Positions 4,457-54,122 of a stretch of 64,000 nucleotides of DNA are shown here, one piece after another. This DNA comes from Cellulomonas composti. Its GTDB lineage: Bacteria; Actinomycetota; Actinomycetes; Actinomycetales; Cellulomonadaceae. The stretch spans positions 248,001 to 312,000 of the forward strand of contig NZ_BJWG01000001.1 of NCBI RefSeq assembly GCF_007990245.1. Direction: 5' to 3'. Positions within the stretch are counted from its first letter, which is position 1; the number at the start of each line of letters is the position of its first letter. The position numbers were made by a program, and so were the translations under genes. The notes under the pieces were generated by a model that saw only the letters and a program-made list of their open reading frames with translations, ran no database searches and was not told where the DNA came from.

Positions 4457-4524
4457 CGTCCGTCCCGTCAGGTGCCGGGGCCGGCGGCGTGTGAGACCAT
4501 GGTCGGCAGAGCCCCCACGGGTTC

Positions 4525-4564
4525 CCGGACGAGGGTGCCGTACCCGGACAGCGACAAGACGGCC
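4525..4564 (+). ncRNA. guanidine-III riboswitch (ykkC-III, PYY RNA)
   Basis: The leader contains, in order, CCGGACGAGG, GTGCCGTACCCGG, ACAG and GACAAGACGGCC. This is a near-complete match to the guanidine-III (ykkC-III) consensus, known from a structurally solved actinobacterial example that differs at only a few positions. The two GC strands form the H-type pseudoknot: CCGG at 4525-4528 can pair with CCGG near 4543-4547, and GGTGCCGT with ACGGCC. The element ends 3 nt before the Shine-Dalgarno AGGGAG (4568-4573), so guanidine binding probably controls ribosome access. It lies directly before an SMR-family gene, the expected partner. Confidence 0.92.
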
Positions 4565-4578
4565 GTCAGGGAGTCGTC

Positions 4579-4893
4579 ATGCCGTGGATCGTCCTCATCC
4601 TGTCCGGTGTCCTCGAGTCCGTCTGGGCCACGGCGCTCAGCCGCTCCGAGGGCCTGCACCGCCTGGTGCCGTCGATCGTGTTCCTCGTCTCGCTCACCGC
4701 GAGCATGATCGGCCTCGGCTACGCGATGCGCACGCTGCCCGTCGGCACCGCCTACGCCGTGTGGGTGGGCATCGGTGCGGTCCTCACGGTCGCCTACGCG
4801 ATGCTCACGGGTGCCGAACCGGTCTCCGTGGTCCGGGTGCTCCTGCTGCTCGGGATCGTCGGCTGCGTCGTCGGGCTCAAGCTCGTCCACTGA
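4579..4893 (+). CDS. sugE: SMR-family guanidinium exporter (Gdx/SugE type)
   Basis: A 104-residue inner-membrane protein with four transmembrane helices (about 2-20, 30-50, 57-77, 85-103) and the essential SMR glutamate at position 13 within GVLESVWATAL. The pattern ESVWATALSRSEG fits the Gdx/SugE branch rather than the drug-polyselective EmrE branch. Gdx proteins work as antiparallel dual-topology dimers exchanging guanidinium for protons. The guanidine-III riboswitch immediately upstream supports guanidinium as the true substrate. Start ATG at 4579 follows AGGGAG by 5 nt. There is a single gene rather than a paired SMR, consistent with a homodimer. It is convergent with the YfcC-type gene. 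Confidence 0.93.
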   Translation: MPWIVLILSGVLESVWATALSRSEGLHRLVPSIVFLVSLTASMIGLGYAMRTLPVGTAYAVWVGIGAVLTVAYAMLTGAEPVSVVRVLLLLGIVGCVVGLKLVH

Positions 4894-51708: not shown

Positions 51709-51724
51709 CCCACCTCGCGTTCGC

Positions 51725-51814
51725 GGTGGTGTGACCCAGCGCGGTGGTGTGACCCAGCGCAGTGGTGTGACCCAGCGCAGTGGTGTGACCCAGCGCAGTG
51801 GTGTGACGCTGCGG
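51725..51814. repeat. 18-bp tandem repeat, four full copies plus a partial fifth
   Basis: GGTGGTGTGACCCAGCGC at 51725-51742 and 51743-51760, then AGTGGTGTGACCCAGCGC at 51761-51778 and 51779-51796, and a partial copy to 51814 that drifts after GTGTGACG. The array fills the 107-bp space between the YciI stop and the stop codon of the minus-strand TerC gene. It lies outside both reading frames. Confidence 0.9.
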
Positions 51815-51815
51815 C

Positions 51816-52865
51816 TCAGACCTGGGGCGGTACCTCGTCGGCGGTCGACACCGTCGCACTCTCGTCGGCCGCCGTGTCCGGGACGTCCGCGCCGCCGCGA
51901 CTGCGCGTCGCGATCAGGCTCGCGATCGCGGTGACGCCGAGGATCCCGACGATCGCGACGAGCGAGAGCCACACCGGGATCTCCGGCGCCCACGGGACGG
52001 GTTCGCCGCCGTTGATGAACGGCACCTCGTTGGTGTGCAGGGCTTCGAGGATCAGCTTGACCCCGATGAACCCGAGCAGCACCGCCAGTCCGTAGCTGAG
52101 GTAGACGAACCGGCTCATCAGGTCGCCCAGCAGGAAGTAGAGCTGGCGCAGGCCCATCAACGCGAAGATGTTCGCCATGATGATGAGGTAGGGCTCGCTC
52201 GTCAGGCCGAAGATGGCGGGGATCGAGTCGAACGCGAACAGGACGTCGGTCGCGCCGAGCGCGACCAGCACGATGAGCATCGGCGTGACGAGCCGGCGGC
52301 CGTTCTCCTTCACCGTCAGGCGCACACCGTGGTACTCGGGCGTCGAGGGCAGCCAGCGCTGGACCAGGCGCAGCAGCAGCGGCGGGTGGTACTCCTCGTC
52401 CTCCTCGCCACCCTCGCCGCGTCCCACCTTCCACGCGGTCCAGACCAGGAACGCACCGAAGATGTAGAACACCCACGAGAACGCCTCGACGACCGCCGCA
52501 CCCGCGACGATGAAGATCCCGCGGAACACCAGCGCGAGCACGATCCCGACGAGCAGCGCGGTCTGCTGGTACGCCCGTGGCACCGCGAACCGCGACATGA
52601 TCAGCATGAAGACGAACAGGTTGTCGACCGACAGCGAGTACTCCGTCAACCACCCCGCGAAGAACTCGCCCGAGTACCGCGGACCGGCCACGGCCCACAC
52701 GCCGAGGCCGAACAGCACCGCCAGCCCGATGTACAGCGCGAGGTAGCGCAGGCACTCCGCGGTGGTCGGGACGTGCGGGCGACGACCCACGATCGCGACG
52801 TCCACGACGAGCACGACGGCCGCGATCCCGAGCGTCACGGCCCAGACGAGAGGATCGACGGTCAC
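51816..52865 (-). CDS. TerC-family membrane protein, paralogue 2
   Basis: A 349-residue protein with about nine transmembrane helices. It has the TerC signature EYSLSVDNLFVFMLIMSRFAVPRAYQQ, and a second conserved site FAFDSIPAIFGLTSEPYLIIMANIFALMGLRQLYF, each with buried Asp residues that would bind cation. A basic/acidic cytoplasmic loop (about 150-200) precedes the second half. Members such as Alx/MeeF export Mn2+. GTG start at 52865 overlaps the upstream paralogue (GTGA), so the two are co-translated from the yybP-ykoY-controlled transcript. Thr/Asp-rich C-terminal tail. Confidence 0.92.
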   Translation of the reverse strand: MTVDPLVWAVTLGIAAVVLVVDVAIVGRRPHVPTTAECLRYLALYIGLAVLFGLGVWAVAGPRYSGEFFAGWLTEYSLSVDNLFVFMLIMSRFAVPRAYQQTALLVGIVLALVFRGIFIVAGAAVVEAFSWVFYIFGAFLVWTAWKVGRGEGGEEDEEYHPPLLLRLVQRWLPSTPEYHGVRLTVKENGRRLVTPMLIVLVALGATDVLFAFDSIPAIFGLTSEPYLIIMANIFALMGLRQLYFLLGDLMSRFVYLSYGLAVLLGFIGVKLILEALHTNEVPFINGGEPVPWAPEIPVWLSLVAIVGILGVTAIASLIATRSRGGADVPDTAADESATVSTADEVPPQV

Positions 52866-53953
52866 GGGAGGTCCGCCGGGTCCGGCGTGGTGGGCTCCGT
52901 CGTGGAGGGCTCCGTCGTGGTGGGCTCCGTCGTCGGCCCGTCCGCGGTCGCGTCCGCAGTCGTGGCAGCGTCCGCGCGACCGGTCGCGATCAGGCTCGCG
53001 ACCGTCGCGACCGCCAGCGTGCCGAGGATCACGGTCAGCGACAGCCAGATCGGGATCTCCGGCGCCCACTCGACCGGCTCACCGCCGTTGATGAACGGCA
53101 GCTCGTTGACGTGCAGCGCGTGCAGCAGCAGCTTCACGCCGATGAACGCGAGGATCACCGCCAGGCCCTGCGAGAGGTAGACGAGCCGCTCGAGCAGCCC
53201 GCCGATGAGGAAGTAGAGCTGGCGCAGGCCGAGCAGCGCGAACGCGTTCGCGGTGAACACGATGTACGGCTCGCTGGTCAGTCCGTAGATCGCGGGGATC
53301 GAGTCGAACGCGAACAGCAGGTCCGCCGAGCCGATGGCCACCATCACGACGAGCATCGGCGTGACGAGCCGCTTGCCGTCGATCCGCACCGTGAGCCGGT
53401 CGCCGTGGTACTCGTCCGTCGTCGGGACGACGCGCTTGAGCATGCGCACCGCGAAGCCGTCGCGCTGCAGCGACACGTCCTCTGCGACGTCGCTGTCGTG
53501 CTTCTCGCGCGCGAGGCTGATCGCCGTGTACACGAGGAACGCGCCGAACAGGTAGAACACCCACGAGAACTGCTCGATCGCCGCCGCGCCGGCCAGGATG
53601 AAGACCGTCCGCAGCACGAGCGCGATCGCCACGCCGACGAGCAGCACCTTCTGCTGGTAGGGCCGCGGCACCGCGAACTTCGTCATGATCACGAGGAAGA
53701 CGAACAGGTTGTCGACCGACAGGCTCTTCTCGGTCACGTACCCCGCGAAGTACTCCGCTCCCGGTCCCCAGCCGGCGACCACGCCCAAGCCGACGCCGAA
53801 CACGACTGCGAGGCCGATGTAGACGGCCGACCAGATCGCCGACTCGCGAAACGTCGGCTCGTGCGGCGTGCGCACGTGCGCGTAGAAGTCGAAGACGAGG
53901 AGCCCGACGATCGCCAACGCGGTCAGGGCCCAGACCAGGCCAGAGACATCCAT
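52862..53953 (-). CDS. TerC-family membrane protein, paralogue 1 (Mn2+ export candidate)
   Basis: A 363-residue TerC protein of about nine helices. It has EKSLSVDNLFVFLVIMTKFAVPRPYQQ and FAFDSIPAIYGLTSEPYIVFTANAFALLGLRQLYF, matching Alx/YkoY proteins that efflux manganese. ATG at 53953 is chosen over ATG 53959 because GGAGG sits 7 nt before it. The C-terminal tail repeats TTEP three times and is encoded by a 15-bp repeat. Directly downstream of a yybP-ykoY riboswitch, arguing for Mn2+ homeostasis rather than tellurite resistance. Confidence 0.94.
   Translation of the reverse strand: MDVSGLVWALTALAIVGLLVFDFYAHVRTPHEPTFRESAIWSAVYIGLAVVFGVGLGVVAGWGPGAEYFAGYVTEKSLSVDNLFVFLVIMTKFAVPRPYQQKVLLVGVAIALVLRTVFILAGAAAIEQFSWVFYLFGAFLVYTAISLAREKHDSDVAEDVSLQRDGFAVRMLKRVVPTTDEYHGDRLTVRIDGKRLVTPMLVVMVAIGSADLLFAFDSIPAIYGLTSEPYIVFTANAFALLGLRQLYFLIGGLLERLVYLSQGLAVILAFIGVKLLLHALHVNELPFINGGEPVEWAPEIPIWLSLTVILGTLAVATVASLIATGRADAATTADATADGPTTEPTTTEPSTTEPTTPDPADLP
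52886..52930 (-). repeat. 15-bp in-frame repeat coding for Thr-Thr-Glu-Pro units
   Basis: CGTGGTGGGCTCCGT, CGTGGAGGGCTCCGT and CGTGGTGGGCTCCGT stand head to tail on the plus strand (52886-52900, 52901-52915, 52916-52930). They encode the TTEP repeats in the TerC paralogue 1 tail. Confidence 0.7.
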
Positions 53954-53964
53954 GGGCATTCCTC

Positions 53965-54090
53965 CGGTACGGGTGCGGTGCAGTACCGAAGGTCTCCCCC
54001 ACCCGCCGAGACCGGGAGGCCGACCGCGCCGGGGCCCGTGCGGACGGGAACCGTGATGACGACGCGATCGCTTATGGGGTACTCCCCTTC
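53965..54090 (-). ncRNA. yybP-ykoY manganese riboswitch
   Basis: Read on the minus strand, GAAGGGGAGTA (54090-54080) and GGGGGAGACCTTCGG (54000-53986) are the two hallmark strands of the yybP-ykoY aptamer. GAAGG pairs with CCTTC to close P1. The region between forms GC-rich helices. Downstream, CGGTAC (53988-53983) can pair with GTACCG (53970-53965), a hairpin that abuts the Shine-Dalgarno GGAGG (53965-53961); it also shares C53988 with P1, so P1 formation and this hairpin compete. That is a plausible translation switch. Its partner is a TerC gene. Confidence 0.92.
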
Positions 54091-54122
54091 ACAACCGCGG
54101 ACAGCATACGGGCGCCCGCGGC

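Follow-up and report, generated by a model that had tools for sequence, protein, structure and literature searches.

Why should one RNA leader stand before two terC genes instead of one? The question is raised by a stretch of 64,000 nucleotides of the Cellulomonas composti genome (contig NZ_BJWG01000001.1, positions 248,001–312,000; the whole stretch is called the window, and positions are given in its numbering), in which two genes for TerC proteins, here T1 and T2, lie on the minus strand behind a candidate Mn2+ riboswitch of the yybP-ykoY class. The role of TerC proteins is itself disputed between export of Mn2+ and loading of Mn2+ onto exported enzymes. Sequence comparison shows an RNA with two alternative structures, an operon, an old split between the two paralogues, and a pattern in which one of each is kept. 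In our judgment it is likely that Mn2+ turns on the translation of two specialised Mn2+ exporters with divided labour, by means of an alx-type riboswitch.

Two overlapping terC genes behind one leader

The features on which the argument rests are listed below. R1 is a covariance model made from 42 actinobacterial leader sequences, with Escherichia coli not included, and RF00080 is the Rfam yybP-ykoY model.

51816–52865, minus strand: T2, second TerC/Alx-type gene, Tyr type (TEYSLSVDN, Y76)
52862–53953, minus strand: T1, first TerC/Alx-type gene, Lys type (TEKSLSVDN, K76)
53961–53992, minus strand: expression platform, OFF hairpin CCUUCGGUAC/GUACCGGAGG, 10 bp (covariation and energies)
53988–54090, minus strand: predicted alx-type (yybP-ykoY class) Mn2+ riboswitch aptamer (covariation; R1 83.8 bits; RF00080 19.8 bits)
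54090–54086 and 53992–53988, minus strand: aptamer helix P1, GAAGG/CCUUC
within the aptamer, minus strand: L1, GGAGUA and GAGA; P2, CCCC/GGGG
within the aptamer, minus strand: P3, CGAUCGCG/CGCGGUCG; L3 strand, UCGUCAUCACGG
54103–54108, minus strand: −10-like element TATGCT (TAnnnT enrichment among named leaders)

Both proteins score above the curated cut-offs of the TerC profile PF03741 (T1 171.4 bits, T2 173 bits) and of the Alx subfamily profile TIGR03718 (377.2 and 363.6 bits), and they are the only two PF03741 matches in the genome to which the window belongs. T1 is 363 amino acids long, or 365 if the alternative start at 53959 is used. T2 has 349 amino acids and a GTG start, which shares the sequence GTGA with the T1 stop, an overlap of 4 nt; the compact operon of a preliminary description of this DNA agrees with the open reading frames and with both profiles. 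The two proteins are identical at 201 of 348 positions (58%). The nearest named relative is Cellulomonas massiliensis JC225 (T1 87% identical), and the ratio of nonsynonymous to synonymous substitution rates against this species, over the first 320 aligned codons, is 0.18 for T1 and 0.30 for T2, values that point to purifying selection on both. AlphaFold2 models were obtained with pLDDT (predicted local distance difference test) values of 87.3 for T1 and 85.3 for T2. A sequence search of the PDB gave no solved relative of the TerC proteins, the sole match being unrelated (E 0.9), and none of the 224 matches of a fold search, made with T1 only, was at E ≤ 0.001.

Repeats are found at the end of both genes. 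A 15-bp repeat of 3.5 copies (52881–52933) codes for a C-terminal tail of T1 that is rich in Thr, Glu, and Pro and lies beyond the TerC domain match, and an 18-bp unit repeated 4.8 times (98% match; 51722–51807) follows directly after the T2 stop codon. A search for terminator-like sites between 51300 and 54300 of the window gave none.

Anatomy and covariation of the aptamer

The leader (54090–53960, minus strand, upstream of T1-T2) contains both signature strands, GGGGAGUA and GUCGUCAUCACGG, and the closing helix P1, as previously described. The strings GGGGAGTA and GAGAC were found upstream in 65 of 80 named TerC loci and in the window, the 15 named loci without them being those of Nocardia and Mycobacterium/Mycolicibacterium. 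After dereplication, 50 of these 66 leaders were aligned with MAFFT. The covariation tests used the columns of this alignment; for the P1 and P2 pairing counts over the 66 leaders, and for the energies, the Shine-Dalgarno sequence was chosen by a list of patterns.

Across the 50 leaders, 96.3% of the cells in helices P1, P2, and P3 are paired, compared with 40–58% in slid controls, and two-sided changes occur in 146 cells against 43.4 in shuffled alignments, none of 500 of which was as high. Less striking is the count of pairs that show a two-sided change at all (10 of 17, versus 7.9 in the shuffles, with 26 of 500 as high). Pairing and covariation support the helices of both legs, P1-L1-P2 and P3-L3. 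P2 is fully paired (4/4) in all 66 leaders, in the five forms CCCC/GGGG, UCCC/GGGA, CUCC/GGAG, UUCC/GGAA, and GUCC/GGAC, while P1 is fully paired (5/5) in 59 of them. The loop nucleotides GGGGAGUA, CGUCA.CAC, and GAGAC are all present in the window. GGGGAGUA and GAGAC were selection criteria and their invariance is no evidence; CGUCA, which is invariant in the 50 leaders, and CAC, conserved in at least 90% of them, were not used for selection. We take the conserved loop nucleotides of the class to be the Mn2+ binders, with the Mn2+ site lying between L1 and L3 in known members.

The transcript probably starts near or just before P1, because the pattern TAnnnT is enriched 15–22 nt upstream of GGGGAGTA (45 of 65 named leaders, with 9.0 expected by shuffling). 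A generic scan for sigma-70 sites found no promoter.

Two mutually exclusive structures and the proposed control of translation

A hairpin next to the Shine-Dalgarno sequence had been proposed to compete with P1, and this is what the comparison points to. The OFF hairpin ends in the Shine-Dalgarno GGAGG (53965–53961), and CCUUC (53992–53988) is common to it and to P1. In the alignment it is paired at 92.4% of cells (28–47% in slid controls) and has 21 two-sided cells against 6.9 in shuffles, none of 500 being as high; the number of pair types is ordinary (equalled in 213 of 500). With standard energies, which include neither ligand nor tertiary contacts, and with P1 and P2 enforced for the ON state, the OFF fold was better than the ON fold in 66 of 66 leaders, by a median of 8.8 kcal/mol (range 2.4–15.9). 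The closing helix and the hairpin that hides the Shine-Dalgarno are mutually exclusive and both conserved, which is the arrangement of a translational ON switch.

From its membership of the class, the RNA would have Mn2+ as its ligand. In the absence of Mn2+, CCUUCGGUAC would pair with GUACCGGAGG and hide the Shine-Dalgarno. Binding of Mn2+ between L1 and L3 would let CCUUC pair with GAAGG, close the aptamer, and free the Shine-Dalgarno for translation of T1; T2, by its 4-nt overlap with T1, would be translated by coupling, and at high cytosolic Mn2+ both TerC exporters would rise together. Coupling of T2 to T1 seems plausible from the arrangement of the genes. T2 is preceded by GGCGGA, which by eye agrees with GGAGGA at five of six positions, and among 60 tandem pairs of the genus a Shine-Dalgarno match of at least 5/6 was found before 55 of the first genes versus 29 of the second genes, whose matches are thus the weaker ones.

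A second switch before T2 was considered and rejected, since the window's genome has a single R1 site. Five of the 60 second genes were flagged by a loose text pattern; we put this down to chance, as each of those genomes has one R1 match listed.

Relation to alx and to the Rfam model

When Rfam was scanned at the gathering score, as the preliminary description had proposed, two matches were obtained in the window, neither of them the leader, and no genome of the genus (0 of 81) had RF00080 above its cut-off. At E ≤ 1, RF00080 gave matches in 14 of the 81, several of them short, partial, and away from TerC. We did not take the failed cut-off as absence, because the relaxed scan and the comparative covariation disagree with it.

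Over its whole length (all 102 positions), R1 aligns with the alx leader of E. coli K-12 (57.1 bits, E 6.8e-11), and it gives no match to the E. coli mntP leader. RF00080 behaves in the reverse manner: it scores 41.6 bits on the mntP leader, itself under the cut-off, and with Rfam 15 it gives nothing at E ≤ 1 on the alx leader (L128, 177–299), in 4.1 kb or in 56 kb. Because of this reversal, the window's element is placed by model scores with alx and not with the sequences that RF00080 models best, in what look like two sub-kinds of the class. The class assignment made beforehand and its ON logic are upheld by the covariation, by the match of R1 to alx, and by the ON/OFF anatomy. To the RF00080 class, for example E. 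coli mntP, the window is similar in the L1 signature and the overall layout, in a weak alignment. R1 has sites in 79 of the 81 genomes of the genus and in 185 of 248 genomes of the order, six of these from the genus. As RF00080 misses alx and, at its cut-off, all 15 actinobacterial loci scanned, alx-type Mn2+ switches are probably under-annotated.

Distribution of the tandem pair

The pair had been called unusual, which its distribution in these actinobacteria does not bear out. Tandem TerC genes occur in 61 of 81 genomes of the genus, the window's own included; among the 79 other genomes examined, 60 have the pair and 19 a single TerC at the locus. Among the single-TerC cases, one is cut by a contig edge (G063) and three are from genomes less than 80% complete (G053, G063, and G070); a further genome, G052, is without a TerC match. 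In 59 of the 60 pairs the first gene is preceded by the switch string, the remaining pair (G061) being at a contig edge. With gene starts taken from the alignment, the two genes are −4 to +10 nt apart in every pair.

Outside the genus, 60 loci of the order were picked by hand from the listed R1 matches. Most genera are represented by about one or a few loci, and one genus by four, taken once adjacency was known. Seventeen of them are pairs behind one switch (spacing −7 to +81 nt), two are tandem pairs with a switch before each gene (L226 and L228), 39 have a single TerC, and two have none. At one of the 39 (L230) the contig breaks off, where a second gene would have escaped notice. A single TerC at the locus is compatible with another elsewhere in the same genome. 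The named loci and the numbered genomes of the genus are largely of the same species, and their counts are not additive.

Two old lineages and the residue at position 76

In a quick tree of 153 rows, a single branch of 54 rows (support 96) contains 37 of 38 second genes, and 33 of 34 first genes lie opposite it. This tree holds the long branches Alx, L237, L263, and L274_second, which were left out of a careful tree. The 80 rows of the latter come from the two clades defined by the quick tree, and in it the second-gene lineage has a support of 100/96. A recent tandem duplication giving T1 and T2 was ruled out by both trees. Two operons (L086 and L189) mix sub-lineages, having the first gene of one subclade and the second of the other.

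The two proteins were earlier said to differ mainly in loops and tails. Only three columns give a clean separation of the lineages (80% or more in each lineage and less than 10% in the other), Y68/F, Y72/W, and K76/Y, and they lie elsewhere: within a helix (62–92) predicted by AlphaFold2 in both proteins, on one face beside the invariant E75 and D81-N82. The corresponding residues of E. coli Alx are F79, Y83, and K87. The acidic residues D22, E75, D81, D211/D207, and D217/D213 are conserved at at least 95% in both clades and are also present in Alx, and the region of E75 and D81 is a putative metal site.

The order is fixed as Lys type first and Tyr type second in all 60 pairs of the genus, in 26 of 26 named pairs (for the most part the same species again), and in 16 of the 17 one-switch pairs of the order. 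The exceptions in the order are L274 (K then W), whose second gene is a long branch, L226 (E then K), and L228 (L then K), each with one Lys. The tandem genes of L226 and L228 (genomes G297 and G236, of the same genus, g31) are about 1.15 kb apart, with a switch each, and apparently represent one duplication separate from the T1/T2 split. In all, exactly one partner carries Lys at position 76 in 105 of 105 pair loci, many of them from shared species; because the independent cases are few, a rule of exactly one Lys is put forward as a hypothesis only.

Each type also stands by itself behind a switch, in some genomes as the sole PF03741 match: the Tyr type at L232, L233, and L260 (G269, G216, and G204), the Lys type at L227 and L265 (G173 and G160). 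The idea that lone T2-type genes regain the Lys was dropped, since among the T2-clade singles listed only L198 and L208 have it, and L194, which stands beside these two, keeps Tyr.

Other genes behind R1 matches, and a second predicted riboswitch in the window

Some R1 matches precede genes of other families. One Cellulomonas genome (G021) has two divergent matches back to back, of 66.4 and 57.4 bits. One of the leaders there (L287, 4112–4196, minus strand; G021:C1:3560611–3560695) stands before a gene for a P-type cation ATPase of 982 amino acids (PF00689, 188 bits), and at L213 (550–2654; G021:C1:3560849 on) a baeRF family 3 gene and then a heliorhodopsin gene (PF18761, 312 bits) lie behind an R1 match. 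A literature search for heliorhodopsin together with a riboswitch returned no match. Weaker R1 matches (37.4, 35.8, and 34.9 bits) precede sodium/calcium exchanger genes (PF01699) at L033, L224, and L225, the first of which scores 36 bits with RF00080. At L280 (101–204; G109:C106:1439–1542), the match precedes genes for the V-type ATPase subunits D (PF01813) and I (PF01496).

The window also contains, far from the terC genes, another RNA element:

4506–4567, plus strand: Guanidine-III riboswitch RF01763 (Rfam scan, 55.4 bits)

It lies directly before a gene for a 104-amino-acid protein of the small multidrug resistance family (4579–4893; PF00893), which is likely a guanidine exporter.

Comparison with known systems

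The nearest relative among known leaders, that of E. coli alx, governs one TerC, whereas there are two in the window; the alx switch is reported in passages of one study to answer Mn2+ and alkaline pH (PMC9603457). At the protein level, Alx has D24, E86, D92, D216, D222, and K87 in common with T1, while T2 has Tyr in place of K87. An actinobacterial terC behind a yybP-ykoY leader, as in the window, is that of Corynebacterium glutamicum (cg2157), whose 5′-untranslated region was observed and whose leader was predicted by Rfam; in the passages concerned, the prediction is listed for one gene, at 49.13 by the then-current model (PMC3890552), and not for two. Bacillus subtilis also has two TerC paralogues per cell, MeeY and MeeF, which, by the excerpted accounts, have overlapping roles in Mn export, with meeY behind a Mn riboswitch (PMC10550928, PMC12096827). 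These genes are, however, at separate loci, with meeF in a constitutive operon according to the same excerpts, unlike the single switch and operon seen here. In Vibrio parahaemolyticus, part of a published account describes two exporter genes, mneA and terC, which are Mn-induced and predicted to be under yybP-ykoY control, but these belong to different families, have distant numbers (VP0023 and VPA0856), and form no TerC pair like that of the window; the same source mentions two terC homologs in A. salmonicida, a case close to the tandem pair (PMC13274385).

Mn2+ switches before terC/alx were already known, and the recurrent tandem-pair variant was not found described: in the open-licence literature, among the matches listed, we recognized no description of paired TerC genes in tandem under a single Mn switch, of the residue-76 pattern, or of the alx-type model.

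Proposed specialisation and its alternatives

The reading that we favor is one of specialisation. T1, of the Lys type like E. coli Alx, and T2, of the Tyr type, would be old paralogues kept one each in a fixed order, for example one for bulk efflux of Mn2+ and T2 altered in its affinity, in its ion coupling, or in the partner with which it works, for instance the secretion machinery. Such a division of labour is the likeliest reason for the retention of one of each, and it is favored because the second genes form an old clade of their own, with a conserved change from Lys to Tyr next to the putative metal site. The genome has no match to MntP or to the GDT1 family, which is also in keeping with the reading. 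Mn2+ as the ligand, its transport, the coupling of translation, and the division of labour itself are what we infer.

Several results weigh against this reading. With a single TerC in 19 of the 79 other genomes of the genus, the pair is dispensable. The aligned leaders were picked by exact GGGGAGTA and GAGAC, which are hence invariant by selection; minimum-energy folding was not above shuffled sequences (z = 0.25), and the unconstrained minimum-energy fold of the window's leader is neither the ON nor the OFF structure. RF00080 reaches 19.8 bits in a relaxed scan versus a cut-off of 45 (E 0.0011 in 301 nt), and the cut-off was reached in none of the 15 related actinobacterial loci (Rfam 15). 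The first-gene lineage is weakly supported as a clade in the 80-row tree (52/63). Four CDF efflux genes in the genome could export Mn2+ too. In the literature searched, no experiment on actinobacterial TerC pairs was found among the matches listed.

If T1 and T2 were instead the two halves of a hetero-oligomeric Mn2+ exporter or metal-loading complex, their co-translation from one switch would set a 1:1 ratio, in keeping with the conserved gene order, the tight spacing, and the one Lys-type partner of all 105 pair loci, and passages of one study suggest that MeeY and MeeF of Bacillus could act as homo- or hetero-oligomers (PMC12096827). However, 39 of the 60 loci of the order manage with one TerC, and the mixed partners of L086 and L189 speak against strict co-evolution. 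An obligate heteromer is disfavored because each type also stands alone behind the switch; a heteromer is possible, not obligatory, and on balance we regard this explanation as unlikely. No more probable is that the actinobacterial TerC exporters behind the switch form an asymmetric two-component system, whether a hetero-oligomer or a two-step relay, in which one partner has to keep Lys76 and the other has to have lost it (to Tyr, Trp, Glu, or Leu), the asymmetry having arisen about three times at the same residue.

Slightly less probable again is that two equivalent exporters are kept under one switch for the sake of more output. The acidic positions kept in both types would suit equivalent proteins, and so would the loci of the genus that manage with a single TerC, but mere gene dosage accords poorly with anciently split lineages and a fixed difference on one helix face, or with the two further apparent duplications, in g31 (E/K and L/K) and at L274 (K/W), that kept exactly one Lys. 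Weakest of all, and improbable, is that the leader senses mainly alkaline pH or another divalent metal and that the pair serves pH or Ca2+ homeostasis: its nearness to alx, whose switch answers alkaline pH as well as Mn2+ (PMC9603457, in part), and the sodium/calcium exchangers, V-type ATPase subunits, and P-type cation ATPase among the other R1 targets speak for it, but alx itself answers Mn2+, and the available portions of two studies connect the TerC family with export of Mn (PMC12096827, PMC10550928).

Specialisation under Mn2+ control stays the preferred explanation. R1 exposes a gap in the annotation of alx-type leaders in Rfam 15. If the asymmetric system were true, the pair might be, for example, a bulk exporter and a partner handing Mn2+ to exported enzymes. 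In either case, one predicted Mn2+ switch stands over two anciently distinct TerC types, and because these differ most cleanly at one helix face near the putative metal site, a residue swap would be a possible test of TerC specialisation.

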